Source: Sphaerolaimus hirsutus (Eukaryota > Nematoda > Chromadorea > Monhysterida > Sphaerolaimidae). From it: DNA of 64,000 bases. Where the stretch lies: NCBI GenBank assembly GCA_964036195.1, contig OZ038455.1:14649855-14713854 (forward strand), in the 5' to 3' direction. Shown piece by piece: positions 11,053 to 63,601 of this stretch. A model generated the notes under the pieces. That model had not been told where the DNA came from, ran no database searches, and saw only the letters and a program-made list of their open reading frames with translations. The position numbers were made by a program, and so were the translations under genes. The first letter of the stretch is position 1; the number at the start of each line of letters is the position of its first letter.

Positions 11053-14000
11053 CTGGGAAGGGGGGCGTGGTTTGAGCGTTTTGCCAAAAAATATCACTTT
11101 CGATGACAAATACCTCAAATTGAAAAATCTATCGAAATTCCCAACAAATTTAATATTGCCGCAATCTGCCGTTTCACAAACTTTTACAACTTCTAAAAAT
11201 CACACTCAAAACTCAAATGACTCTTTCTCAGAGGTAATTTTCTCACCGGCATCCAACCGGCCGCGTGGTGGTTGCACTGGGGCACGAGCAGATTGGCGTT
11301 GTCGTCGCCCGTGCCGTCGCTGCTGCCGTTGCCGGCGCCGCGGCGCTGCGAGTTAAGTGTCTAGATTTTAGGAGGACGTAAGGCGCACCATGTGACAGAC
11401 AGTAAGCGCCCTACGCGCAAAATTTTATTGAAGTTTTTGAGTAGTATTTGATTACTTTTTTTTGCGATTACATCGTTAAACGACAGTGTAGCATTCCGCA
11501 AAAAAGCCCATTCCGCATTTTTGCCCATCCCGCAAATGTGCCCATCCCGCAAGTTGCATCACCTGTGTGCGGGATGGGCACATTTGCGGGATGGGTCACA
11601 TAATTTGTGGGATGGGCACATGTGCGGAATGGTTTTTGATGCGGAATGGGCCCTTGCCAGGGACACACGTTACACCTTACAATGAGATCTACCATATCCC
11701 ACCAGAATAAAAAACAAACACAAAAAAAATTTCCATCATACTTATCCAAATTTGCTTTGATAAATATGATGAAATTTTTGTTATGTTTATTCTTTTATTC
11801 AGATGGAAGATGGTAGATTTCATCGTAAGGTGTAATGTCGCTGGAGTATACCTGTTAAAAAAAACCTGTGCACACAACTGCCTGATGTTTTATGTTTTTA
11901 AATTCATTTTTCATGCAAATGAAAGTCTTCACACCATCAAAATAGTGGTATAAAATACTCATGGGCAAACATCAACCAAAAATAGAAAAAATGTGAAGCT
12001 GACCCTGGCGCACGCGGTGTAGTATTTCTGGGAGGAATTCTCGCTCAGCTTGTCACAATTGTGATAGCGCCGCGTGAAGAACCTGCAAAAATTCAGTAGA
12101 AATTAGTTTCCACTATCAGACTCAAGCGACTGTCATGTAAAGTAATGCAAGCAGACTAAAATGTTATGTAAAGTGTCAAAAGTCAGGTAAAATGTCATGG
12201 AAAATGTAGAACGACTGGTATTTTGATCTCCATTTTACACGGTTTTATTTTACATGAATTTTGGCATTTTGCAGGACATTTTACATTAAACATTTTACAG
12301 AGTCTGGGAGTGGAACCCAGGTTATAACGGCCTGTCACAAAATGCAAACAGCGGATGTCCTCCCTCAAACAACCCCCCCCCCTTTACAAGCTTACCAGCA
12401 CAGCGTAACGCCCACGACGGCCAGTACAAAAAACAGCAATACAGCCACCAGCAGTGCAAAAATGGGCTGTGTCAGAATCAACGGTGCAATGGTGGTCGTT
12501 TCTGGCCCAGCTGCCACAGTGGTGGCATTGGCTCCATGTGGAAATTGACCAGTGTTGCTGACAGGTCCTGGTGGACTCGAAGTGGAGTAGAACAGAACCG
12601 GGCTACTCCCGATTTTCGTGCCTTTTGGTGAGTCTGGGGAAAAATGGATGCTGTTTAGGTTACATTTTAAAACGGCAAAGGACCCGTGCTCATCTCTACC
12701 CGGTGCTCATCTACTGCTCATTTTACGGCAACTGCCCGGTAACCCGGTGGCCGGTGGGGGGCAAAATGAGCACCGCGCAGGGGTCTCCAGGGGGGGAGTA
12801 ACCCCCCTCCAAACCGCCCAGCTATCTATCTGTCCCGGATGCTATCTACTTTTAAAAATTTTCTTCCTTCTACACCTTGAAAAAGCCAACATATTGAACA
12901 CCCCCCCCCCCATTTTCCAGCTATCTATCCGTCCGGAGGAGCGATTTGGTATCTATCCAACCCCCAAGAGGGTGAAAATCTAGGATACCCCTGATACTGG
13001 GTAAATAAATATGAGTACCGGGTAGCGCAGGAAAAGCACCGGGTAGAGATTAGTATTACAGTGCTAGTGCAGTGCCCATTTAACTATTCTATTCGCATTT
13101 CCCTGGGTATTTATCGCGTATCCGAACATCTACCTTCTTCATCGTGCCCCCCCCCCCCACCGGGCACCGGTAACCGGCCAGTTGCCGTAACTGAGCAGTT
13201 GATGAGCACCGCGTAAAGATGAGAACGGTCCTTTGTCATTCCGATGACTTTGCTCGATATTGGGGAACATGTATTTTACATCCACGTGCTTGAATGATTC
13301 CAAGCAAGATACAGAAACGCGCAACCGAAAACATCGAGGCCCGAATCCCATCAGCCCAGGACTCGTGCACGTGCACTCGTAAACCTGGTGCACATGTACG
13401 TAGGCCTGGTGCACATGTAGGCCCGGTGCACATACATGTGCACGGGGTACCGGCCGTCCTAAAACGAGACGTCCTCAAATTTGGCTTCAGGCGTTTTACC
13501 ACTACTAGTTACACAGATAGAAAATGCACCGTGAAACTGCTCATACAAGGTCTAGTGGCGGAAAGAAAAACGCCACAATTTTCAAATTCGGGCAAATGTG
13601 CACATGTAAACCCGGCTGCACCTGTAAAGTTACCAACGCATGCACATGTATGCACACGCCCGGTGCACATGGACGGACGATGCCCCGTGCACATGTATGT
13701 GCAGATAAATGTGCACCGGGCCAACATGTGCACCAGTCAAAAATAAATGTGCACCAGGCCTACATGTGCACCAGGTTTACATGTGCACAGCAGCAGGCTC
13801 AGTCAGGAGTAGTGATGGAAAAGCGCCATGGCGCTGGCGCCTGGCGCTAGCGCCAAAGCAAAAAGCGCCATGGCGCTTTTGGCGCTTGGCGCTAAAATGC
13901 TCTGGCGCCATTGGCGCTTGGCGCCGCCATCTGAGAAAGCGCCATGGCGCTTTTGGCGCTTGGCGCCATTTTCTGGTGGCGCTATTGGCGCCTGGCGCCA

Positions 14001-17000
14001 GCATTTTTAATAGCGCCAAAAAAGCGCCAGCCATGATTAAAAAAAATTCAAGAAAAGAGAATTAATTTTGCTAAATTATGGTATACTCAACATAATTTCA
14101 TAAATACCATATATACTCGAACAAATCCCCAGGGAATGTTTTTTTGTCAGACGTTTCTGAGGGGGGGGGGCATTCAAGGGGGGAATACACCATACATACA
14201 TGAAATATGAAACACATTCAGGAGGGGGCACTATGAAATATACTTAGGGGGCAGTCCCAAACCCTCTTAAAGTGTAAAGTAAAGTGTCAAATGTAAAGTC
14301 AACTGCAAAGGAAAGTGTCCATTGTCATGCAAAGTGTCAATCGTAAAGTAAAGGGTCAATTGAGTATCCAAACCTTTTTTCTGTATCCAAATAATAATTC
14401 CTGTATCTGGAAAAATAAGATTTGGATGCAAAAAGTAAAATTTGGATACAAAAAGTAAGATTTGGATACACAGTTGAGACTTTACTTTACATTTGACTTT
14501 ACATCTGATACTTTTCATGACAATTGACACCTTACCTTGCATTTGACTGATTTTACATTCATCACTTTACAAGGCATGGGACTGCCACCAGGTCTGAGTA
14601 AGCTGGGGAAATATTACCCTCTGGAAATACCCCACCGAAAATGAGTGTAAAGAGGATGTATATAAACTGCCTTTTGTGATCTGTGTTATGCAGAACACAC
14701 GTTAAAACAATGACTGAGTTACATTAGGACAAGGATGATTATGCATTCTACTTATATATTTTAAAATTTGGACGCTTATATTTACGTTATATTGTTATCG
14801 TCTGAGTCAGGGGTATCCAGGATTTTGTGCCTCTTGGGGGTGTGGTAGAAAGCAAATCACTCCTTCCAGGGATTGATAGCTGAAAAAACTGTTTGGAACA
14901 CCGTGCCACAAAATTTAAACACATTTAGTGTTTGGCGCTGGCGCCATTGGCGCTTGGCGCCATAGCCTCCTGGCGCCATTGGCGCTTGGCGCCGTTGTCC
15001 AGAAAAGCGCCATGGCGCCTTTGGCGCTTGGCGCTAAAACGCTGTGGCGCCTTTGGCGCTTGGCGCCGTGGTCTGAAAAGCGCCATGGCGCTTTTGGCGC
15101 TTGGCGCTAGAAGCCTGGCGCTTTTTCCATCACTAGTCAGGAGCACAGTCAGACGATAACAAAAAAAAGTAAATTAAAAAGGAGCCGACCAAAAATGCAA
15201 ACGGGGCAGCATTGCGAGTGGGCGGTGAGCGCCAACAGGCCGCCCGTGCAGTTGACCGGTGTCAGAGGGGGGCACGCCGCAGGCGAACACGACGTACGAC
15301 CGCCCTGCGAACCGTGCGTGTGCAGTAGTGCAACATTACGATTGAAGTGTGTCTGGAGACCCACCTCTAAACAGGTGCAATTGATGCAGGGCCCGTCGAG
15401 CCACGCCTCCCCCTCCGCGTACAGCTGCCCGTTGTAGCTGCACGCGGCCCCGTTGGACAAGTCCTCTGCGCACGTTCAATTGAATATGATTAAATTTAAA
15501 CGAGACCTGATGTCGGGAAGCCTGACACACATTGATGGTAAAACATGGTTGGGTTGAGTAGACGCCAATAGTCAGATAAATTGATGTTCTGATTTTTGGC
15601 TCAAAGCTGTTGTGAAACTTGATAGAAAAACGTCAGAAGTAATAGCGCCAATGACGTCATGGCGTCACACCCTCGGCGCACACAAATAGCGCATACAAAA
15701 TTTGGGCCCTCATTCCATCGCTGATGGTGAATCAGGCAGCTGGTTCTGATTGAATTAACACTCCGACCCTAACGCACCCTGACACAGGGGGCAGCAGGCG
15801 CCTTTCATGTACAGCGGCGCGCCCGCGCTGCACGAAGTCCTCGCGCACGAGCTCGTGTTGCACAGCGTGCGCCCACCCTCGTCGCATCTGCCGCATTGGA
15901 AAGTTGGTTGCACTTGGGAGTTGTTCGTGTTTGAGTGTTGCAATGGGGGGGGGGGTAACGTATTTCTCCGTGCAAACCACCCCGGTGCTATACAAAATCG
16001 AGACCCTTTACAGCAACCTTTTTTAAAAACTGTATAACACCCGGGTGTTAGATCAGAGGGTGTTTTCCACGGAAACTACACTAAACTTCAAAGTTGTGCT
16101 TTCGTTTTCTATTTATGATATACGTCCCTACATATTTAGGCTTTTTTGTTCCCCGCGTGCAGCAATAAAATGGAAAAATGCGTGCAGCGAAATTACAACG
16201 AGTGGCGCGCGCCACACACAATATTTAAGCAATTCAAATCGAGTGATCTTTTTGAAACCTAAATAGCATAGCACCCCGGGGGTGCTATGCAGCCGTGTAA
16301 CACCCCGGGTGTTGTGCACGGGGGGTCCTTTACACGGAGAAATACGGTAGAAGTTACGTCATATTTTGATGCGCAGTATGAAAAATAATAATAAATATAA
16401 AAACTTCGTGCTAAATATAAAAACGTTCTACATTCTCTGAAAAATACAAGGCATTTTTACTTTACAGGGGTTGCGTGCATTACTTACGGTTGGCAGCCTG
16501 CCAACATACGACATACTTCACTATCCGTGCATAGTGCCAAGCCAAGTCACTGGAGCTAACTCACAAGCAAGCGGTACATTCAGACGCAAACCAAGTGGAT
16601 CCGGCGGGCCGCACAACACCGTTTTCATCGGTGCAAACCGTTGGCGCTGTGCCAATTAAAGCGACATCCTTCAACCGGGGAGTGCCTAAATTGGCGTCAC
16701 TTCCACCCGCAGATGGGTTTTTGGTTGTTGAAGATGATTCTGTTTTTGAACTGGACGGCTGCAGACACCTGCGGTTTTTGGTTTCAATTGATGTTTGGCT
16801 GAGTGACTTCATTTGAGACCAAAAACGTTCATTGAACTGAAAAAAATACAACGGCACTGTTTCAACTTTAAAAGTGCTGCGCACACTAGTTTTCACCCGA
16901 AATATGGAAAACTCATTCACATATCAGCTAGAACACATTTGAGTCTTCTAGAATGAGGTGTCCGTCAACTATGGTCATAAGTGACTCATTCTAGAAAACT

Positions 17001-20000
17001 CAAATGCGTTGAAAGCTGATTTATGAGTTTTCCAAATTTTGTGTAAAAACTAGTTTGCGCATGGGTAGTCAAAACCCCGCACACCGTCGCCACAAAAAAT
17101 CCCAGCTAAAAACGCAAAATAATCCATACAACCCGAATATGCAGTAAGCCCGCCAAACACCCAAAAATACCTGGGGCAGCAGTGCATTTCCCCATCGCTG
17201 TCGCTGTCCGAACTATTCTGACACAGGCGCGGCGCAGGGGGGCAGGCGCCAGCCGAGTGGCACATTATTTTGCCCATACGACAGGTGCAATTGATGCACG
17301 GCGACACGTTGAAGGTGGCCCCTTCGGTGTAAATGCGTCTGCGATAATTGAAGGCTGGTTTGCCTGGAATATAACCACGCGGTTACATGAATACCTATAA
17401 CCCCGCGGGTCTTTGAATACCAGCCCACGTGCGCAGTAGGTAATTGTATGGTGATTTGCCTCTATTTCCAATTCAAACTGGCCATCAAATCGTTAAATTT
17501 TGTCACAGATCCCATAAACTTCAATCCTGCCGACAAACCTAAAAGGCCCGTCTGTATTCAAGCAGTACACCTCAGTTGGGTCGTTTGCCGCTGGAGGCGG
17601 TGCCGGTGAGGTCGCATTGGAAGCCGATCTTGGCGCAGGGGAACACCTTGGACAGCACTCGCCTGCGCATGCGGACACACAGCATAATTCATTGCAGAGA
17701 TACTTCAAAAAGCAAGAGGAATAATTTTGAATGTTTTTTTTTGTATTCACGATCTTTACCTAGTGCACCGTTCAATTAAAATTTTTGTCGATTTGTTACA
17801 CTATGATAGCAACTTTGCATTTTAGGACTTGCATTTCCAGTTTTAGAATGGGTAACTAATTATAATTAGCATTTCAGTGCATACCGATGTGTGTTTTCCA
17901 GTGCTGCCAGTCGCAGTGAGCCGGATCCCATGGGCTGCATTCGAGCAGGGAACAATATGCCCTTCCGTCGATTGAACAATAACAGTGCCTGTGATTAGAA
18001 ATTCTATGATTTGATGGGGATGGGAAGTATATTTACGTTGATATTTTATCAGACAAAAAGTAGTTGACACATTTTTGTGTGGAGCTACGGGTTTTAATTT
18101 TAAAAAGACATTTTGGGGTTTCATCATTCCTTGCAATAACGTTGTGTTGTGACGGAACATACGTTACACTTTATTTTTGTTTCTAGCATTCATCCATTAG
18201 TAGACAATGTTCAGCCTTTTCAATTCAAGATTTTCATATCTTAGAGTGAAAAGAATAAATGAGCACCAATTTCAGAGCTTTTTCGCACGCTAATATTTGT
18301 GTAATAAAATATCAAATATTATAAAAGTTGGGTATTAGCGTCTGCCACCTGCAGCCATCGTGCCAATATTCTCCCGGCTCATAACTTTTCGATTGCACCT
18401 GCCACAGCTCGCCCCCGGTGCCAATTTTTTCAACGGTGCACTTTTTTCCTTCTCTCGGCACTGGGCCAAGTTTCGTGTCCAAGTCGCTTTCGCCTAAATT
18501 TACAGGTAAATGACGTTTGGATAATAAGGGTGTAGGAACTTTAAATTAAGGATCCCATTAACGATAGGCTTAATTAGGGATCTCAAAACATTTTGATGCC
18601 TGAGCACCTTAAATTATTATAATTCAGAATTGGTGCGATGATTCTATTTTAGTTTACCGTATTTCCTCGAAATACCCCCCGGGGTGATTGTTTCAGAGCG
18701 AGCATTTTGAGCGGGGTCAAACGAGGGGGGTATTTCGAGGGGGGTATTTCGATGGGTGTATTTCGAGGGCGGTATTTCGAGGAAATAAAGTATATATGAT
18801 AATCAAAATACAGCAAAATCTAAACAAATAGCAAACCTTCGCCGATCTCATCGCCGCCGCTGCACTGGCACAATTCGCAACCGTGCGCGTTACGCAATCG
18901 GCCGTAAATGCACTTTTTGCCGCACAAATGCTCGGCTGGGCAAGCGACGCATTGACAAGTGGGGCACATTTGCGAAGTTGAGTTGCCCTCAGCTTGTGAA
19001 GTGACGTCGGCTGGGGAAGTGGCACTAGGAGCTTGTGAAATGGCGTGCCCGTGTAGGCATTGCAGCTGGCAGGTCGATGGCAGCAGACTTGAACAACCCG
19101 CTGCCGGCGTGCTTTCTGTAATGATGGCAAACCCTCTCGAAAAAATTATTTTTAGTGCTTTTTTTCTAAAACGACTTTTAGAATTTCGCATTTTTCTAGA
19201 AACACATCGATTTTTAAGTGTTTTTCTAACGTACAAACTATGAGAAAAATAGGAAAAATATGAACCTGTGTGTCCATCGGGAGGACTGGCACAGCCGCAG
19301 TGAAAGCAGCCATCGTTGGCTCGCCTCAAGCCGTGCGTGCAGCGAAGTTGGCAAGCGTCCAAGTTTGGACAGTTGGGCCCGCCCGCGTGCACCACTGTCG
19401 GTTCTGAGTGTGGAGTGTTGATTTTTAAGCAGTTGAAATCAAATTTTTCCAATTGTCACTTTTATCGACATTTTCTACCATACTTCTGCGGTATCAATGC
19501 AAATTTTCTTCTGAAAAATTCAGGGGTTCATATTTTGGGCACTTTCCAATTATATTGGTAATTTCACAGTTGCCCATTTTCATATTTACACGTTATAACA
19601 CTTATTTTTGCATCTATCAACGGAAAAACACGATAAAAATGACCGAAAAAATAACTTTCAAATGGACTTACTATCACAAACAGGGCAGCACTGGTCTGGT
19701 ACCTTCCTCGCTGCCGACAGTGCGCAAGTGCGTCTGCGAGTTATTGCAACAGCTCTGGGAAATACTCAACGATACATTTATCAATGACCCATCGAATAAG
19801 CCCCCCCCCCTCAAATTTATCACCCTATAAATTTAGGGTATTTCGAGGAAATGCGGTAAAATACTTCTACACACACCTACCTACAACTCTGCGTGTAGCA
19901 CTTTGTCCTGCCGTGCGGCGGCACGCAGGTGCACGTGGTGCACTCGTCCACGGCCCAGCTCTGGTTGAAGGGCACCTTGGCGCCCGTGTCCGTGATGCAG

Positions 20001-27391: not shown

Positions 27392-30300
27392 ATGCAGGGA
27401 TGTTGTAGATTTGGGCCCCTGTGCAGGTTCATAAAATAGTTAATTGCTCCTCCAGAGGGATAGATAGCTTTAAAAATTTGTGAGGTGGGGGGGGGGGGGT
27501 TCAGGGGTCTGCAGGCATTCAATATACATATAGGCTTTTTCAAGGTGTAGATGGAAAATCACTGAAAGTATATGTAAAATTGCTTAAAAATTGCTTGGAT
27601 ATAGGCAGGGGTATCTTGAATTTTGACCCTCCAAGTGGTTGGATAGATAGCAAATCGCTCCTCCGGAGGGACAGATAGCTGAAAAACTTTCTGGGGGGGT
27701 TGGGGGGTTTGGGGGGGAGGGTTGTGGTGGTTTGATAAAAAGGCTTTTTTGGGGGAATAGAAGGAAGAAAAGGGAGAAAAATCGCTAAAAGTAGGTGTAA
27801 AATAGCTCAAAATGGGATAGAAGAGCATATAGTACTTAAAATAGCTGAAAAAAGGCAGTTAGACACATGAACCAGTGATTTTGGAGGTGAAAATCTATAT
27901 ATATGTATGAAAAATAGCGATTTTGAGCAAAAATTTGGGTATAGTTTCTGAAAAATCGCTCCAGGTAGGTAGATAGCTGGGCGATTTGGGGGGGGGGTTT
28001 AGGGGGTAGTAGCCCAAAATTTTGCTTCCAGGATTGATAGATAGATAGCTGAGCAGCCTCCGGGATAGATAGATAGCTGGGCAGTTGGGGGGGGGGTAAC
28101 CCCCTCCCAACCCCCCCATTCGAGACACCTAGATATAGGTAAAGATAGGTAGATAGGCACAAAATATATAGTCAAAAATAGCTGAAAATGGGCAATAAGG
28201 CATATGAACTAGTGATTTTGAAGTTGAAAATGGGTCAAAAAGAATCAAACCTAATGATTTTGAGTGAAAATTGTGGCAAAATTTCTCAAAAATTATTTCA
28301 AATTGATCGATAGCTGTTTTCTGGGGGAGGGGGATTCAGGGGTAGTAGCCAAAATTTTGGCTCTGGATAGATGGATATACCTGAGTGGCTTCCACAATAG
28401 ATAGATACCGTAAATGCTCTATTAGGACGACCCCCCTCCAATAAAGCGACCTCTCCAATAGTACGACCCCCTTTGGCACGTTGTGTAAGTATAAAGCGAC
28501 CTTCTCCAATAATCTGACCCCCTCCAATAATGCGACCCCCTCCAATAATGCGACCCCCAAGAAGAATAAAAAACAAGAAACGGACATTGAAAATGATGTC
28601 GCAATGGTCGGACGCTGCTAATTCGGCAAACTTTACCCCAAATTTAGCAAATTTTGTGACTTTGTGGTGATTATTGCTGTACAATATTGCTTTACGATGC
28701 CATGCTCATACGAGTTAAATGAACAGTTAAGTTGTTGAGGTGTCGAAAAATACAATGCGACCCTCTCCAATAAAGCGACATCTCCAATAATGCGACCCCC
28801 AAAAATGTGCTGAAAACAATAAACCGACAGTTGCCTTATTGGAGCATTTACGGTAGCTGGATCGTTGGGGGGAGGGGGCGGGGTAAACCCACCTTATTCA
28901 AACCCCCCACCCATACTAGACTCCTTGATGTTAAATCATAGCACCTTTGATGCAAACTGGAGCAGTTTTTACTTGATGTGAAATATGTGTGACAGTTTCA
29001 CAAAATGGTCAGACTAGTAAGCACAAGAATATGACTGAAAAAACAGCAGTCAAAAATCCTATTGCTATTAAAAACACTCAACCCAAATCTTTCAGTACAC
29101 ACCAACGAACGGCGCCTGGCGGGTAAATGCTTTGAAGTGGGTAAATGAAAATGTCGTTTGAAATACAGAAAAAAATTCGTCGAATGTTGTGGGAAAAATT
29201 CGACACGATGTATCATCAAATATCACATTCTACCCAAAGCCAAAAATCATACACTTGAATGATAAAATGCGTGCCTTGAAAAAAAGCGTTTGCGCCCAAC
29301 AAATGTAGCAGATGCAATTCAATAGATATGCAAATACTAAGAGAAAAGCGTGATGGGATAAAGAGAGCTTTGTCTCAACATCACAATTCTCAAATAACAA
29401 TAATAATAGCGCCAATGTAAACAATAACATCAAATAGTCAAAATCACACCGCAATTCTTGGGTCTTCCTTGCAAACAACACAATGATCGTCTTTACGGTG
29501 TGGTCGACTAGATTTTTTGACAATTTTCTTTCACCAAAACATTCCTGTTTCTGTGCTAGTGCTGTTTTTATACTAATGAACTACTGCTTCCTAGCAATGT
29601 ACCATTTGTCATTGATAATTGATAAAAAATTGAAGTTGCAAAAATGGGGGCAGCTCACACATCTTCCAGCTAAATAGCTAGGTAAATACGTATTGAGTAT
29701 TCACAATTTTGCAGATTGTTATACAGAAACAAAAATACTTGAGATAGCCAAAAGTAATAAAATTTAACAAAAATAAGCTTGAAGAGTAGAATTAAGAAGA
29801 GCCAAAATGTAATAAACATTAACCACCGTGTATTGTTTACAAAAATGAGATCTGTTTGCCCATGGGCCGTGGCCGATTGACACCTCTCTGTCTCTAGGTG
29901 ACTTGATTGAATATTTGTTTGCAAAACGGTTACCATATCATTGTGAATAACACCACAGGTCCCAAATTCAATTAGAATGTAAGGCGCAGGTAAGGCGCCT
30001 TAGGTTCCAATTAAATTTGGTGCCTGGGGTTCTTATGAAGTGGGGAGCATGGAGGTCTGCTTGAGTTAGCCCTTATGAGTAGTTTACGATTGTTCTAATT
30101 ATAAGTGTAATGATTAATTCTAACAAAATAGATGCAGCAAAAAATTATCTAGGTATACTCTGCGGACCGTATTTTTCGGATGCATATTCTAGTGAAACAA
30201 TTCATGATGACTCGCAATGAAAGAATAAAAATTGTTCAAAAATAATAAAAAAACGATTAAGGAAAAACAAACAAAAACCGCTGTAAGCGACTCCGCCTTT

Positions 30301-33300
30301 TTATTTTTAAATATTTTTTTTGTTAAAGTACCTGCACAAGTAGTATCCTGCTGGCGCGTTATCAACATGCGTAATTTTGGACGAGGTCCGCTGAGTATAG
30401 CAAATTTCATTTTTATTTAAATTGTATTATTCACTAAAAGCCATAATAAAAGTGATCGAAAGTTGTCCGCGCAAAGGTTTTCCATGAAGGAAATTTCATT
30501 ATACAATAAATCAAAGTGCCTAAATCAATAATTGAGTTCTCCCTAAATTTTTATGCCATGCCCAGTTTTACTTCATGAAAGAATGGACATTTTCACGTAC
30601 CTAATTGATGAATCAGGCGCAAAAGTTTTTACATTTTTATGTGCACACAAAATAACAAGATTACCTAATTTCAAAAGTGATACACGCATGGATAAGTCCC
30701 GTCCGAAAAACGTGAGCTAAAACGAAACAACATTATCTACAGACAAAAATAGAAACAGATTACGTAACATTCTAGCATGGAAAAATAAATATCAATGACA
30801 AAAAACGAACACATAGATAAATAAATTATGCATACAGTTGGTGAAAAGTGTGAGACTATAGAAAATATCAAACATTCTGTAACTGTAAGTACTAGGGATG
30901 TCCAAGGGGTTTTTTCAAAGGTTTTTTAAATAAAAAACCATCGAAACCGTTATTAAAAAAAAAAACCTTGACCAAAATCTTTTTGTACTAAGCACTAGGT
31001 AATCTGCAATTTTTTTTGCGCGCAAGTGCGCAATTTCACATGCACCTTACTGTATGTGGTGGTTTTCATTGGTTTTGCGGCATTTTTAATGTAAATCATC
31101 CTTCCATTTGTTCATGCTATTGTGCCATAATAAGCTGTGATATGTTAGTGTAGTATATAATATCCAGTCAATGTGCCTCCATATACTTGTAGAGTGTGAA
31201 AAATTATTTCTAATGAATTAGCCTTCTATTGTGCCTGCGCACACTAGTTTTCACACGAAATTTCGAAAATCAGCTTAGAACGCATTTGAGTTTTTTACAA
31301 TGAGTTACCCGTCAACTACAGTTGACGGAGATTAAAAATGAATCATTGTGGAAAACTAACACGTTTAAAGCTCATTTATGAGTTTTCCAAATTACCTGTG
31401 AAAACTAGTGTGCACAGGGCCATTGTAACCCAATTTAAACACTATTCCAAGGCCAACTTCACTTGAAGTCACAAACATTTGACAAAAGCCAATATTCGTA
31501 ATAAGTCGACATAAAACAGATACTTTTGACAGAAATCACCACTTATAATGATATCCCATGGCTCCACAGCCATTATATGGCTAAATATAACACCACAAAG
31601 TACTGTCACCTGTCTGATATACCAGTATATGTTGACTCATAACCATATCTGGGAGCTTTTGAAAGAAACAACGGTTTTATTTTAAAATAAAACCCTGTTT
31701 TTGAAAAAACGGTTTTTAAATAAATAAAAACCTGTCGTTGAAAAAAACTTTTTTTGGCCATCCCTAGTAAGTACTTGTATATTTACTTTTCTAGAGTGAT
31801 TTTGCGAAAAGATCCATTGAATACAGTATAATTGAAGATACAGTATAATTGAAGATACAGTATAATTGAAGATACAGTATAATTGAAGATACAGTATAAT
31901 TGAAGATACAGTATAATTGAAGATACAGTATAATTGAAGATACAGTATAATTGAACTCGGTGAATTTAATTTGACATTCATCTGAAGATCAACTCAAAAT
32001 AGCGGCACTGTTGACTACAGTTTGATAGGACGCTCTTCTCGCAAATCATAGCAAAATTATTTTTCACGCCACGGTGATAACGAATAAATATATTATATCA
32101 AACGTTCAATTTAACAGGCGTTCGGCGTGCATAAAAAACCCAGTGTAAACAACAGTGCCCAGAAAGCAAACATTTTCAAATAAAATAGAAATGCAAATAA
32201 AAAGGGCACAGCTCAATTTTATTTCTCTCGAGGATCGCCACATTTTTTCAGTTGGTTGCGAGAATAAAACTATTTATAAATAAAAAAACCTGAAAGAAAA
32301 ATGCCTCAATTTATAAACGGACAGTTGACCTTGATTTGTGTGAACGCTCATCGCAGATCGACTAATCATGAGAAAAAGTGTGCAACTAGTGATAGCAAAA
32401 ATTCATAAAAGTGACGTCATGTCGCCTGCTGAATAAGCACCGGGGGTCAAATTCAATTAAAACATAAGTCGTCCGATACGTGAGTAAGCGTAAAAAAGTG
32501 TGGGCTACAGAACCAATTAAGAGTTTTATCAGCGTTCATTATTTTTAGAGTTTATTTTTAAGAATTCATTATTTCAGAGAGATTTCCGATTTCAGAGATT
32601 TACACAATTTTCAGAGATCACAGTCCACCGTTTCGGGAGACATCTATTTTTCAATGATTATACGTCATCCTAAATTTCGACGTAAAATCATTGAGAAATC
32701 TATAGGTATTTTCAGAAAAAGTTAAACTTTCAATCAGAGTTTTGGACACGACTAAGAAATGGATTAGTACTTCGTCCACTAGAAATTGGAGACGAGTATC
32801 GTGATGGAAAAAGCGCCAAGCGCCAAAAGCGCCATGGCGCTTTTTATGAGTGTGGCGCCAAGCGCAAATGGAGCCACCGCAAAATAGCGTCAAGCGCCAA
32901 AAGTGTCATGGCGCTTTTTCCTTGGCGCTAGTGCCAGCGCCAGGAGCCAGCGGTTTTCTGTAACTAAACCAGTATCATCATCCACTTTTACCGTAAATCT
33001 TCTAATAGAAGAACGCCATTCTATTTTTATCATCAACTTTTCTAACTGCCGTTCTACTGGAGGTGCCGTTCTACTGGAGGTGCCGTTCTATTGGAGGCAG
33101 CCCTGCGGTCAGCGAGGTAGGTAAATACAAATACCTAATTTGATCTCCATTGAGCGAACCACACGACAAATTTGGTCAGAATGAAAATACACGGGTAAGC
33201 GCGCCTAAAATGCATGCGATCATTACATGCTAATAAACGGGCCATTGAATGGCCCAATTAGCAAGGGCAGAATGAAGCCAAATTCAAGCCAGACCACCCA

Positions 33301-40789: not shown

Positions 40790-42930
40790 TTTTAACCAGG
40801 CTGTGAGTCCCCCCTTAAGAAATCTATTCTAGATGGCATGGGACCTAATTTATTTAGGACAGACTGAATGGGACTGCCCAAAAAACGTGTGGTGCTAATC
40901 AAATCGTGTGCGCAGTGATAGAAATTGTCACTGGCAGGTTCCATCTCTAGTTGCCAGTGAGTCACTGGTGGCAAATATTGAATAAATTTTAACTGGTGCG
41001 TTACTTTTACATGAACTTCTAAACGCGCTTCATTCATTTTAGTATACAGTTTTGAGTGCAGGTGAATGCAATGACATCACCAATGACGTCATCCAGGAAC
41101 AAATCAGCCATTTTTGAACCTATTTCCGCACTTTTGCATTCATACAGATTAAAACGTGGATGAATGCAAAAGTCATTGGCAGCCTTTTTAGGGTAGTGGT
41201 TTTTATGCAAATTCGAAACTTTAATGCTGCTAGAGCACTGTAAACCAGACTTAAAAAGTGTGATGCCAAAATTAAATAAGCTATTTTGTTTGGCTGGTGC
41301 TCACTTGGGTCGCATAACTAATCTACCAAACCATACCCTAAAATTGGGCATTACACTGAAGTTTACTACCACTGTATTTTGATTGCTCAAATTAATAAAT
41401 TAATGCAGGATAAGTTTTGCTGTATTTCACAGCTGTTCACAGCCATTTCAGACATTTACACATCCCCCCAAAGCTCGAGCTATGGCAGTGTGTGTCAAAT
41501 TAATCAGTGACTGCCGGATGTGGGTGGGGAGCAGTTTATATTCACCTAATGTTACCATAAGACTATCACAGATTAAAACACACTTCAAAAAGGTAAATAC
41601 CTATACTTTAATGTGAAAAGCAAAAACTTCCTCGGCGGGCATAATGCTATCCCAATAAAAAAATATCTCTTTGGATTTACAATGCTCTTAACTCAACTAA
41701 AAACGTTTCGCTTTATTTTCTCTTTCCTTTCTCTGTTATAGTTTTTAATAAGCAAGCATTTTAAATATATCAATATCAAATTCCACGCAGAAAAATTACC
41801 TGAATTACTGAACTTTTGTTGACATTTTTGCGTTTTTTACCGAAAGCAAATAATTCAGGATGGCACAGGACACATTTTAATCCACGAAATAAATATTTGT
41901 TGTTGTATACAATTTAATGTTTATACTGGAAGCAATTTGTTTGCGCAATTGGAAATAATTTTTGTCAATTTTTATTTAAATGTTGAATTATACAACTGTT
42001 TATGATTATATCAGCTGTTGATTTTTTTTTAAAGGCACAAACAGAAGATACAAATGGCCACTTTTCGAAAACGAAAATGTGTACATCACAGGTGTCAAAT
42101 ACCTACCTCACAAAAATACCAAATGACGAATGGAGAACCAAACACAGCATGATTTACCTTTTCTAAACTTAGAAATGGATGGATTGATTCCAATAGAAAC
42201 TGCAAATAGCGCAGCTAGAGGCCCATATCATCTGTTTCAGCTGAAATTTCAAATCGCGCGCAGTCCAGGGAAATTCCATTATTTGCACAAAGATTGAATT
42301 TCAGCCCATTATAACCGAGTGAAAGCCGAGATATAGGCCCAAAAGAAGGTAATGGCATGCAAACAGCGCATACATGAGCGAAAATGTAGTCATATACAAT
42401 TTTTGCATCCAATTCGAAACACATCGTTGCTGTGTAACGATAACATAATCATTTGATTGCACCTTATTATTTTTTTAAATTTAAATTAAATTTAAATGCG
42501 ACTTATTTCGTCGTAAGATTTTCTTGACTTGGGCAATTATTCGATTATTCAAGGTTGAGTTAGTGACCAAAGCGCACTGTTCATAATTTACTGTATTTAT
42601 GAATCGGGAAGGAATGATACCCTTGAAAAATCTGAAACAGAACAGAACAGAAACGTTGTTGCTTGCACATAGCGTACGGTACCTTGTCTTTTCTAGCATT
42701 ATTATTATGGGGCAGTGCCAGTTCCTTTTTCTGGGATAATAGCAGCAGGGATTAAAACTTTAATTATATGCATGATAAAATATGTAAACCTAGGGACCCC
42801 CCCCCCCCCCCCCGCCCCCTTCACGGGCCAGGTATAAAATATGCTCAGAAATAGACTTTCATAAAGCGATTTTGTAGGCATTTTACCAAAATTTTTCGCG
42901 CAATAGCGCATTTCTATCCTCACAATATAG
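40790..42930. other. Two kilobases without recognised gene or repeat
   Basis: AT-rich DNA with short open frames only; a C run is at 42799-42815. Confidence 0.35.
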
Positions 42931-42946
42931 GTATGTATATTGTCGC

Positions 42947-45524
42947 CAGGGGTCTTGAATGGGGGGGGGGGTTGGGGGGGGTTACCCCCCCCCCTCAAAC
43001 CGCCCAGCTATCTATCTATCCCGGAGGCCGCTCAGCTATCTATCTATCCCGGGGGCAAAATTTTGGGCTACTACCCCCTAAAACCCCCCCCAAATCGCCC
43101 AGCTATCTACCTACCTGGAGCGATTTTTCAGAAATTTTCGCCCAATTTTCGCTCAAAATCGCTATTTTTCATACCTATATATAGATTTTCACCCGCAAAA
43201 TCACTAGTTCATGCATCTAACTGCCTATTTTCAGCTATTTTAAGTACTATATGCTATTGTATACCCATTTTGAGCTATTTTACACCTACTTTTAGCGATT
43301 TTTCTCCCTTTTCTTCCTTCTATGCCCCGAAAACGCCTATATATCGAACCACCACAACCCCCCCCCAGAAAATTTTTCAGCTATCTATCCCTCCGGAGGA
43401 GCGATTTGCTATCTATTCCTCCGGAGGAGCGATTTGCTACCTATCCCTCCGGAGGAGCGATTTGCTATCTGTTCCTCCGGAGGAGCGATTTGCTACCTTT
43501 CCCTCCGGAGGAGCGATTTGCTACCTATCCCTCCGGAGGAGCGATTTGCTATCTGTTCCTCCGGAGGAGCGATTTGCTACCTTTCCCTCCGGAGGAGCGA
43601 TTTGCTACCTATCCCTCCGGAGGAGCGATTTGCTATCTGTTCCTCCGGAGGAGCGATTTGCTACCTATCCCTCCGGAGGAGCGATTTGCTACCTATCCCT
43701 CCGGAGGAGCGATTTGCTACCTATCCCTCCGGTGGAGCGATTTGCTATCTGTTCCTCCGGAGGAGCGATTTGCTACCTTTCCCTCCGGAGGAGCGATTTG
43801 CTACCTTTCCCTCCGGAGGAGCGATTTGCTACCTATCCCTCCGGAGGAGCGATTTGCTATCTGTTCCTCCGGAGGAGCGATTTGCTACCTTTCCCTCCGG
43901 AGGAGCGATTTGCTACCTATCCCTCCGGAGGAGCGATTTGCTACCTATCCCTCCGGAGGAGCGATTTGCTATCTGTTCCTCCGGAGGAGCGATTTGCTAC
44001 CTTTCCCTCCGGAGGAGCGATTTGCTACCTATCCCTCCGGAGGAGCGATTTGCTATCTGTTCCTCCGGAGGAGCGATTTGCTACCTTTCCCTCCGGAGGA
44101 GCGATTTGCTACCTTTCCCTCCGGAGGAGCGATTTGCTACCTATCCCTCCGGAGGAGCGATTTGCTATCTGTTCCTCCGGAGGAGCGATTTGCTACCTAT
44201 CCCTCCGGAGGAGCGATTTGCTATCTGTTCCTCCGGAGGAGCGATTTGCTACCTTTCCCTCCGGAGGAGCGATTTGCTACCTTTCCCTCCGGAGGAGCGA
44301 TTTGCTACCTATCCCTCCGGAGGAGCGATTTGCTATCGCTCCTCCGGAGGAGCGATTTTCTACCTTTCCCTCCGGAGGAGCGATTTGCTACCTTTCCCTC
44401 CGGAGGAGCGATTTGCTACCTATCCCTCCGGAGGAGCGATTTGCTATCTGTTCCTCCGGAGGAGCGATTTGCTACCTTTCCCTCCGGAGGAGCGATTTGC
44501 TACCTATCCCTCCGGAGGAGCGATTTGCTATCTGTTCCTCCGGAGGAGCGATTTGCTACCTATCCCTCCGGAGGAGCGATTTGCTACCTATCCCTCCGGA
44601 GGAGCGATTTGCTACCTATCCCTCCGGAGGAGCGATTTGCTATCTGTTCCTCCGGAGGAGCGATTTGCTACCTTTCCCTCCGGAGGAGCGATTTGCTACC
44701 TTTCCCTCCGGAGGAGCGATTTGCTACCTATCCCTCCGGAGGAGCGATTTGCTATCTGTTCCTCCGGAGGAGCGATTTGCTACCTTTCCCTCCGGAGGAG
44801 CGATTTGCTACCTATCCCTCCGGAGGAGCGATTTGCTACCTTTCCCTCCGGAGGAGCGATTTGCTACCTATCCCTCCGGAGGAGCGATTTGCTACCTATC
44901 CCTCCGGAGGAGCGATTTGCTACCTATCCCTCCGGAGGAGCGATTTGCTACCTATCCCTCCGGAGGAGCGATTTGCTATCTATTCCTCCGGAGGAGCGAT
45001 TTGCTACCTATCCCTCCGGAGGAGCGATTTGCTACCTATCCCTCCGGAGGAGCGATTTGCTATCTGTTCCTCCGGAGGAGCGATTTGCTACCTTTCCCTC
45101 CGGAGGAGCGATTTGCTACCTTTCCCTCCGGAGGAGCGATTTGCTACCTATCCCTCCGGAGGAGCGATTTGCTATCTGTTCCTCCGGAGGAGCGATTTGC
45201 TACCTTTCCCTCCGGAGGAGCGATTTGCTACCTATCCCTCCGGAGGAGCGATTTGCTACCTTTCCCTCCGGAGGAGCGATTTGCTACCTATCCCTCCGGA
45301 GGAGCGATTTGCTACCTATCCCTCCGGAGGAGCGATTTGCTACCTATCCCTCCGGAGGAGCGATTTGCTACCTATCCCTCCGGAGGAGCGATTTGCTATC
45401 TATTCCTCCGGAGGAGCGATTTGCTACCTATCCCTCCGGAGGAGCGATTTGCTACCTATCTCTCCGGAGGAGCGATTTGCTACCTATCCAACCACTCGGA
45501 GGGTCAAAATTCAAGATACCCCTG
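42947..45524 (+). mobile_element. Expanded 2578-bp CAGGGGT-family hAT-like MITE
   Basis: The 8-bp TSD ATTGTCGC is exact at 42939-42946 and 45525-45532. The ends are CAGGGGTCTTGAATGGGG and TTCAAGATACCCCTG. The first 430 bp and last 40 bp match the 526-bp copies at 55853 and 27606 phrase by phrase. The extra 2.05 kb comes solely from expansion of the internal CTCCGGAGGAGCGATTTG unit, which those copies hold once. The single exact TSD shows the array is part of one insertion. Confidence 0.92.
43383..45490 (+). repeat. 28-bp minisatellite, 75 units, higher-order structure
   Basis: Each unit contains the palindrome CTCCGGAG followed by GAGCGATTTGCTA and a variable 6-8 bp tail. I count 75 units from 43391 to 45489, all 28 bp except a 27-bp unit near 44335. 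Three main tail types (TCTGTTC, CCTTTCC, CCTATCC) recur in ordered runs. 44641-45060 and 45061-45480 are a 15-unit, 420-bp tandem duplication with a single mismatch seen. No forward frame contains a stop, so three long open frames cross it. Confidence 0.95.
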
Positions 45525-45569
45525 ATTGTCGCCAACGCCCATACTTCCACGGCGCTGCGCCTACAGGGG

Positions 45570-46040
45570 CCAGTTCCGCAAGTGGACAAGTTAAGAGTTA
45601 AAAGTTAAGAGTTGAGTAAAATGACAAATGGCAAGTTAAGAGTACAGTTGAATGATAAATGATGAGTTAAGAGACAAGAGTAAATTTAAGAGTAAAGTGA
45701 AATGACAAATGATTAGTTAAGAGATAAAAGTAAAGTTAAGAGTCAAGCAAGTGTATCCAAATCTTATTTTTTTGTATCCAGATCTTATGTTTTTGTATCC
45801 AAATATTATTTTTCGACATAATATTTGTATACAAAAAAATAAGATTTGGATACGAAAAATAAGATTTGGATACACTTGCTTGACTCTTCACTTTACTCTT
45901 ATCTCTTAACTAATCATTTGTCATTTAACTTTACTCTTGTCTCTTAACTCATCATTTAACTTTACTCTTAACTTGCCATTTGTCATTTTACTCAACTCTT
46001 AACTTTTTAACTCTTAACTTGTCCACTTGCAGAACCGGCA
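45570..46040. mobile_element. Large perfect foldback element built from AGTTAAGAG words
   Basis: GGCCAGTTCCGCAAGTGGAC at the left and its inverse (GTCCACTTGCAGAACCGGCA) at the right. The roughly 180-bp arms consist of TTAAGAGTTAAAAG and ATGACAAATGGC words and are almost exactly complementary. The centre (45745-45880) repeats GTATCCAAATCTTATTTTT in both orientations. It begins some 40 bp after the expanded MITE. Confidence 0.85.
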
Positions 46041-46525
46041 CCAGAAAGCGCCAGAGACATGGCACCATTCCGTTATTTACTGGGCCGTTATTTTGGGGGG
46101 ACGCACCCTCACCCCCGTTTGCCGAGCTCCGTATACAATCCCCCCTCCCTCAAAAATACTCTGTAAATATTATACCTGAATTGTGCCAAGCATTCTTTTC
46201 TGGTTCCAGGTGAACGCAAAAAGAACACAGATGATTTTATGCGATGGGCAGTGGGTCGATGATGCATGTGCAGCGCCAGGCAATATATTCTATTTCTAAA
46301 ATTCATATTCAAGATGTCTGATCTTACTTTTGAACTTTTTTCAAGTAATAACTTTTACCTTCTTCAGTCACCAATTTTTACCTACTTTATTTATCACATT
46401 TTACAGGGAGTAGGTAAATATATTCCAAGTGCGTATTTACGTAATTTACTTTTTCGGGAAATACTGTACATCAAACAACTATCTGAGCCACAAGGCTGAA
46501 ACGCATTGAAACCTATCTACTTTGG

Positions 46526-55852: not shown

Positions 55853-56378
55853 CAGGGGTCTCGAATGAGGGGGGGGTTGGGGGGGGGGGGTGTTACCCCC
55901 CCCCCCCCAAACCGCCCAGCTATCTATCTATCCCGGAGGCCGCTCAGCTATCTATCTATCCCGGAGGCAAAATTTTGGGCTACTACCCCCTAAACCCCCC
56001 CCCCCCAAATCGCTCAGCTATCTACCTATCTGGAGACATTTTTCAGAAACTATACCCCAATTTTCGCTCAAAATCGCTATTTTTCATACCTATATATAGA
56101 TTTTCACCTCCAAAATCACTGGTTCATGCGTCAAACTGCCTATTTTCAGCTATTTTAAGTACTATATGCTCTTGTATACCCATTTTGAGCTATTTTACAC
56201 CTACTTTTAGCGATTTTTCTCCCTTTTCTTCCTTCTATGCCCCAAAAAGCCTATATATCGAACCACCACAACCCACCCCCAAACCCCCCCCAGAAAATTT
56301 TTCAGCTATCTATCCCTCCGGAGGAGCGATTTGCTATCTATCCAACAACTCGGAGGGTCAAAATTCAAGATACCCCTG
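55853..56378 (+). mobile_element. Full-length 526-bp CAGGGGT-family MITE, reference copy
   Basis: The 8-bp TSD TGGGTATC is exact at 55845-55852 and 56379-56386. The ends are CAGGGGTCTCGAATGAG and TTCAAGATACCCCTG. It carries a single CTCCGGAGGAGCGATTTG unit at about 56317-56334. It is the best template for the ancestral state of the expanded copy at 42947. Confidence 0.92.
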
Positions 56379-63108: not shown

Positions 63109-63601
63109 CAGGGGTTTGGTAGGGGGGGGGGGGGGGCTGGGGGGGAGGGTTACCCCCCAAATCCGCCAGCTATCTATCTATACCGGAGGCCCGCGCAGCT
63201 ATCTATCTATTCCGGAGGCAAATTTTTTGGCTACTATCCCCTAACCCCCCCCCCCCCCCCCAAATCGTCCAGCTATCTATCTATCTAGAGCGATTTTTGA
63301 AAAATTTTCGCTCAAAATCGCTAATTTTCGTACCTTTTTAGTTTTTCACCTCCAAAATCGCTAGTTCATGTTCATTATCGCCTATTTTGGCTATATATAT
63401 GCTTATATACTGATTTTTAGCCATTTTTCACCTACTTTTAGCGATTTTTCCGCCTTTTCTTCCTTCTATACCTCGGAAAACCCTATATATTGAACCCACG
63501 CGAACCCCCCCCCAGAAAATTTTTCAGCTATCTATCCCTCCGGAGGAGCGATTCGCTATCTATATGAACCCCCGCGGGGGTCCAAATCTACAAAACCCCT
63601 G
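63109..63601 (+). mobile_element. CAGGGGT-family MITE in PPP5C intron, 493 bp
   Basis: The 8-bp TSD GGCTACTG is exact at 63101-63108 and 63602-63609. The ends are CAGGGGTTTGGTAGG and CTACAAAACCCCTG. It holds a single CTCCGGAGGAGCGATTCG unit. It is more diverged than the 526-bp copies. Confidence 0.88.

Follow-up and report, generated by a model that had tools for sequence, protein, structure and literature searches.

The window analysed here comprises 64,000 nucleotides of the Sphaerolaimus hirsutus contig OZ038455.1 and contains four copies of a hAT-type MITE, one of which carries 75 tandem units of 28 bp where its three sister copies carry a single unit (Table 1). The 75 cores of the array, of the form CTCCGG[A/T]GGAGCGATTT[G/T], lie at 43391-45479 and follow each other at 28 bp in 73 of the 74 gaps and at 27 bp in the remaining one. 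TRF called the array at 43380-45489 with a period of 28, 75.4 copies, 93% matches and a score of 3660. The core span leaves 489 bp of the element (42947-45524) outside. The TIRs are CAGGGGTCTTGAAT and ATTCAAGATACCCCTG, and the 8-bp target-site duplication (TSD) ATTGTCGC is exact on both sides. Cores, TRF and TSD agree and bear out the sequence-only reading, which had described the copy at 42947 as 75 units, with three variant types in ordered runs, inside one exact 8-bp TSD.

Table 1. Features of the expanded element, its sister copies and the adjacent foldback (positions within the window).
Feature	Position	Strand	Basis or remark
Sister copy, single unit, 5′ end mutated (TAGGTG), TSD GATATAGG	27606..28131	-	TSD by eye
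5′ target-site duplication ATTGTCGC	42939..42946	.	
Non-autonomous hAT-like element with expanded array, 2,578 bp	42947..45524	+	TIRs, 8-bp TSD, subfamily alignment
Related 28-bp direct pair (CCGCCCAGCTATCTATCTATCCCGGAGG x2), common to sister copies	43000..43056	+	TRF
75 tandem units and terminal 10-bp partial unit	43381..45489	+	
First unit, type p	43381..43408	+	same as commonest unit among single-unit copies
Perfect 22-bp palindrome ATCGCTCCTCCGGAGGAGCGAT in 27-bp unit v	44335..44356	.	sole exact occurrence in the genome
Tandem duplication of a 15-unit (420-bp) block	44565..45460	+	476 bp exact at lag 420
3′ target-site duplication ATTGTCGC	45525..45532	.	
Foldback element, long imperfect inverted repeats, ~25 bp past 3′ TSD	45557..46051	.	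candidate cis factor
Sister copy, single unit, core at 56316, TSD TGGGTATC	55853..56378	+	script-delimited
Sister copy of related subfamily, single unit, core at 63538 (one mismatch), TSD GGCTACTG	63109..63601	+	script-delimited

TIRs of hAT elements are short and start with CAGGG. The ends of the expanded copy conform to this consensus and are alike in the 53 copies that could be delimited; the terminal sequences are CAGGGGTCT.../...ATACCCCTG. The exact 8-bp TSD of the expanded copy is likewise that of a hAT element. With 3,470 cores in 348 Mb and delimited copies of mostly ~480-540 bp (range 312-627), the family is small, high-copy and dispersed, as MITEs are. A forward frame is open from end to end in 14 of the 52 delimited copies longer than 450 bp and a reverse frame in none of the 52; the copies are presumably too short for a hAT transposase. 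The PF05699 hAT dimerisation domain has 28 matches in the genome, compared with none in 14 control genomes.

In its left part the expanded copy clusters with the copies at 55853 and 27606 and with L003, L006 and L008 (90-94% identity). All four window copies hold, close to the 5′ end, a direct pair of related 28-bp units, which TRF located at 43000, 55912 and 63163 and which was recognised by eye, in a more diverged form, in the copy at 27606. The copies at 55853, 27606 and 63109 had been said to share a single unit of the same sequence; each does hold one unit, but the core of the 63109 copy, CTCCGGAGGAGCGATTCG, is one base off.

A different dispersed repeat (42800-42930) adjoins the 5′ side of the expanded element and has at least 40 further matches with 75-83% identity (best 40 of 659 candidates). 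Within these best-scored 40 of 659, only this locus matches the initial ~238 bases of the 5′ flank, and no second haplotype of the locus was found. Elsewhere in the window, TRF detected a perfect minisatellite of ATACAGTATAATTGAAG (31821-31955, 7.9 copies at 100%) and 74-bp tandem units in two clusters rich in GGCGCC/GCGCCATGGCGC palindromes (13862-15109). Two of the ten scanned ORFs encode VWC (15152-15475) and antistasin (18823-19455) domains, perhaps as exons of one large extracellular protein gene on the minus strand (15152-19455).

Composition and order of the array

The units were named by their heads. Type A (CTACCTATCC) occurs 32 times, type T (CTACCTTTCC) 21 times and type G (CTATCTGTTC) 15 times, which together accounts for 68 of the 75 units; type t (CTATCTATTC) was found three times, and p, u, v and w are singletons. 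The order of the units is ptAGTAGTAGAAuGTTAGTAAGTAGTTAGAGTTAvTTAGTAGAAAGTTAGTATAAAAtAAGTTAGTATAAAAtAw. Since A precedes G in 14 of 15 cases and T follows it in 12 of 15, the array is built on a higher-order A-G-T unit of 84 bp. None of 1,000 first-order Markov strings reached a tandem block of 15 units. In a weaker test, on the longest repeated unit run at any lag, 1% of 2,000 Markov strings equalled or exceeded the observed value of 16. Collapsing exact tandem blocks, the 15-unit block first, reduced the 75 units to 21 in 18 steps, and the same procedure left a mean of 37 units in 500 shuffles, the minimum of which (21) equals the observed value. Odd units are placed at the edges of the array (p and t on the left, w on the right) as well as inside it (u and v), which unequal exchange would permit.

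The array cores are identical in 73 of 75 units and two differ. Against the majority sequence of its subfamily, the left body of the expanded element shows differences at 21 of 446 sites, ~6 of which lie in a G run; the corresponding values for five sister copies range from 2 to 25 differences per 442-445 positions. The body is more diverged than the cores, therefore the array is younger than the insertion or has been homogenised by exchange.

A protein-coding array was considered and rejected. The unit length of 28 bp is not divisible by three, so that one open frame means that all three are open, and the long ORFs look like a by-product.

Census of units across the genome

A search for the 18-bp core yielded 3,470 occurrences (1,785 and 1,685 on the two strands), and the reversed pattern used as a control yielded none. 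Collapsing the 73 exact array cores and the two cores of a dimer to one each gives about 3,397 loci, a figure that still counts twice any copy whose cores are spaced differently (for example L172). Tandem junctions in the 28-bp register are confined almost entirely to the array: a pattern with 25 fixed bases matched 72 junctions, 71 of them in the array and one at C2:5061000, and a looser pattern with 20 fixed bases and variable spacing matched 73, of which 72 are in the array and one is again the C2:5061000 dimer. In this dimer (L009), which belongs to another subfamily, 28 bp are duplicated exactly, and it therefore represents an independent first step.

A sample of single copies consisted of the first 100 of the 3,470 matches in contig order on C1 and is thus not random. 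All 100 contain one core, and no second core was found within ~50 bp in any of them with five substitutions tolerated. This contradicts equally long arrays in every family copy, one of two outcomes that the sequence-only reading had named as its own refutation. Both flanking 11-bp repeats (GCTATCTATCC) are intact in 53 of the 100 copies. The TSDs are exact in 46, 8 bp with one mismatch in seven and missing in 47, as counted by a script that chose among several candidate ends per copy, so that these numbers may include chance matches.

We also searched for homology with 140 bp of the array. The best 40 of 214 candidates were scored and gave 61 matches, 21 in the array and 40 elsewhere; three of the latter (on C14, C6 and C469) were inspected. 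The match at C14:21147718 is a diverged trimer in the 28-bp register. The other two loci (L171 and L172) have repeated 3′ modules that are spaced differently, by 59 and 54 bp at C6 and by 92 bp at C469; tandem duplication in the MITE family is thus not bound to the 28-bp register. Because the trimer and the modules with other spacings escaped both patterns, two expanded monomers in 3,397 is a minimum. No other long array was found with the two patterns and the homology search (best 40 of 214 candidates), which strongly diverged arrays could escape. The search for further expanded copies that had been suggested thus left the expansion unique among the copies searched, accompanied by one dimer and one diverged trimer.

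The 5′ units show a different distribution. Of the 100 sampled copies 55 have two 5′ units, 13 have one, 31 have none and a single copy has four. The exact junction of a 5′ pair occurs 960 times, corresponding to about 894 loci, and an exact two-junction pattern has 66 matches genome-wide, which we assigned manually to 54 loci on the basis of 28-bp adjacency. Of these larger 5′ arrays 44 match three units, eight four and two five, where the final unit may be partial, as the pattern includes just its first 8 bases. The two five-unit copies lie outside the window at C3:4996266 and C15:14222546. Comparison of gain from the pair (54 of ~894) with gain from the monomer (at least 2 of ~3,397) gives an odds ratio of 109, which was obtained with exact patterns and from unlike unit sequences. 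Growth from a 5′ pair is thus ~100 times commoner than duplication of a monomer, the monomer count being a minimum. Extra 5′ units may have been inherited by transposition and not gained independently. Most 5′ pairs remain pairs, which shows that a dimer alone is insufficient for expansion. The 5′ arrays end at five exact units, and a fitted geometric tail gives a log10 P of about -53 for 75 units. Such a tail essentially never reaches 75, so the long array needs another regime or a locus-specific push.

Origin of the array and comparison with known systems

We consider it probable (about 0.78) that a hAT MITE with a single unit inserted at this locus and that the unit was then duplicated in place and grew stepwise to 75 units. 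The inserted element would have carried its 28-bp unit between 11-bp direct repeats (GCTATCTATCC-17 bp-GCTATCTATCC), and rare slippage or short-homology repair between these repeats may have doubled the unit in place. From two or more units onwards, the structure of the array suggests tandem duplications of single units, of blocks of two to four units, chiefly around A-G-T, and of the 15-unit block, which would have led to 75 units and at the same time kept the array homogeneous. Because the exactly duplicated block is so large, unequal sister exchange or template switching during replication would be favoured over single-unit slippage for the late steps. Cross-unit pairing of CCTCCGGAGG, which requires two adjacent units, may raise the rate here, and the foldback ~25 bp away perhaps does so as well. 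The array is most likely a neutral, length-polymorphic minisatellite without evident function.

It is unlikely that the palindrome of each unit (CTCCGGAG) drives the expansion alone, via hairpins and polymerase slippage. The palindrome CCTCCGGAGG has a length of 10 bp, or 12 bp in types G and t, and is disrupted in only two array units, u and w, but the unit site of the 100 single copies also has a palindrome of 10-12 bp in 95 and of 8 bp in five, and none of them is expanded. A lone unit folds no better than shuffled sequences (-2.0 kcal/mol, z -0.1), while a dimer (-12.9 kcal/mol, z -3.75) and a trimer (-17.9 kcal/mol, z -4.3) fold far below them, which argues for a contribution once two units are adjacent. 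The C14:21147718 trimer, on the other hand, has CATCTGGAG at the palindrome site and, judged by eye, no palindrome. Unit v speaks for an involvement: compared with type G, taken as its parent from its place in the unit order, TGTT is changed to GCT, which completes ATCGCTCCTCCGGAGGAGCGAT, besides a separate G-to-T change. A clustered change that perfects an imperfect inverted repeat is the signature of a quasipalindrome mutation, and mutations of this kind are ascribed to template switching in passages of PMC3820800. Unit v therefore bears the traces expected of a mutation templated by a palindrome, as in quasipalindrome template switching, although this is one event and could have arisen by chance. 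Given the thousands of unexpanded copies with a palindrome and the trimer that is free of it, the palindrome was rejected as a sufficient cause; it is dispensable for small gains and is at most a helper. The earlier suggestion that it may promote slippage or unequal exchange keeps unit v and the folding of two units in its favour, against the unexpanded palindromic copies and the trimer. That the neighbouring foldback caused the expansion in cis is also rather improbable; it might stall replication, so that repeated template switching beside it would have built the 75-copy array. The foldback (495 bp) has 107-nt arms that are 87% complementary, plus other arms, and a folding energy of -212 kcal/mol (z -37.7) was computed for the segment 45540-46060. 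Among 13 family copies, of which L001-L009 have ends approximated from the core position, the 3′ flank of the expanded copy reaches -222 kcal/mol compared with -48 to -113 for the other 25 flanks, one of which is 399 nt only. The flanks of the L009 dimer are unremarkable (-71 and -75 kcal/mol), neither being comparable. The link between foldback and expansion is suggestive and concerns a single locus; if it were real, the quasipalindrome mutation in unit v could be an independent trace of template switching. Should this hold and apply widely, foldback elements would locally ignite the birth of minisatellites.

The remaining explanations concern whether the array arose here at all and whether it was selected. 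An expanded master copy that transposed to this site, its array predating the insertion, is quite improbable: one TSD enclosing array and element is compatible with either order, but no other copy with more than three 3′ units in the 28-bp register was found (two patterns, best 40 of 214 homology candidates), and the body holds more substitutions than the array cores. Inflation of one or a few units by mis-assembly is very unlikely as well. The exact 476-bp repeat is the type of sequence that an assembler could duplicate; against this stand the complex arrangement of several unit types, p, u, v and w being private variants, the intact element and TSD around the array, the position of the locus at 14.6-14.7 Mb within a long contig and the fact that beyond the array both tandem patterns match just the C2 dimer. 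We regard adaptive amplification as highly improbable. The unit would be a putative subterminal transposase-binding site and extra copies would boost transposition, in analogy to Tetris and Galileo, as argued in passages of PMC4079207. The motif AGCTATCTATC...GGAG is present near both element ends, but copies with more 3′ units have not proliferated (two patterns, 100-copy sample).

The proposed stepwise growth in place concerns one locus. The array is a minisatellite born within a MITE and not a genome-wide satellite, because in these searches tandem 3′ units in the 28-bp register are confined to the array, one dimer and one trimer and all 100 sampled copies are single. Long arrays at several loci, as a satellite in the strict sense would have, were not found with the two patterns and the best 40 of 214 homology candidates; the birth of a satellite from one MITE-internal unit, as first proposed, is right in that the expansion took place within one TSD, but 'satellite' overstates one 2.1-kb array. 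The first step from a single sequence to a tandem array is usually inferred afterwards, and here the states are visible in one MITE family: about 3,397 loci show the start state, and beside them stand separate first duplications, a stock of small 5′ arrays and one runaway. One genome thus allows first duplication and later growth to be counted and their rates compared, and the census points to a locus-specific cause of the runaway array.

Our literature search, weak and not species-specific, found nothing on this MITE family. According to passages of two reviews, monomers within MITEs grow into arrays, seeded by flanking microhomology (PMC12628747, PMC9659126). These sources describe miDNA4 of Xenopus tropicalis (Scalvenzi and Pollet, 2014), a MITE-internal monomer present singly or in variable arrays, for which short flanking direct repeats are proposed as the duplication seed. 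The family studied here likewise has a unit that is single in most copies and tandem in some, beside direct repeats of 11 bp. Unlike miDNA4, which is Tc1/mariner in these passages, it is hAT-like with 8-bp TSDs and a 28-bp unit, one locus of about 3,397 is long, and stand-alone arrays without element ends were not found (two patterns, homology search with the best 40 of 214 candidates). Tetris/TIR-220 of Drosophila virilis, an example of tandem-repeat birth inside a transposon, is also a non-autonomous DNA element in which internal repeats seed kb-size arrays and unequal exchange is invoked; as far as the excerpted text goes, it belongs to the foldback elements, its ~220-bp units lie in the TIRs and it was amplified in beta-heterochromatin, whereas here a 28-bp internal unit forms one array (PMC4079207). 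Xstir of Xenopus (Hikosaka and Kawahara, 2004; as cited in part of PMC12628747) resembles our case in that tandem repeats derive from MITE-internal sequence as a composite of MITE and array, but its stem-loop excision model joins two elements, and here one intact element lies in one TSD. Minisatellites born in Alu and other elements, in the sections consulted of PMC6947457, arise by a first duplication between short flanking repeats followed by expansion, as we propose here; the host in our case is a DNA transposon, and the states before and during expansion can be counted in thousands of sister copies. The kind of event is thus already known from miDNA4 and Tetris, and what is added is a countable start, intermediates and an outlier within one hAT MITE family.
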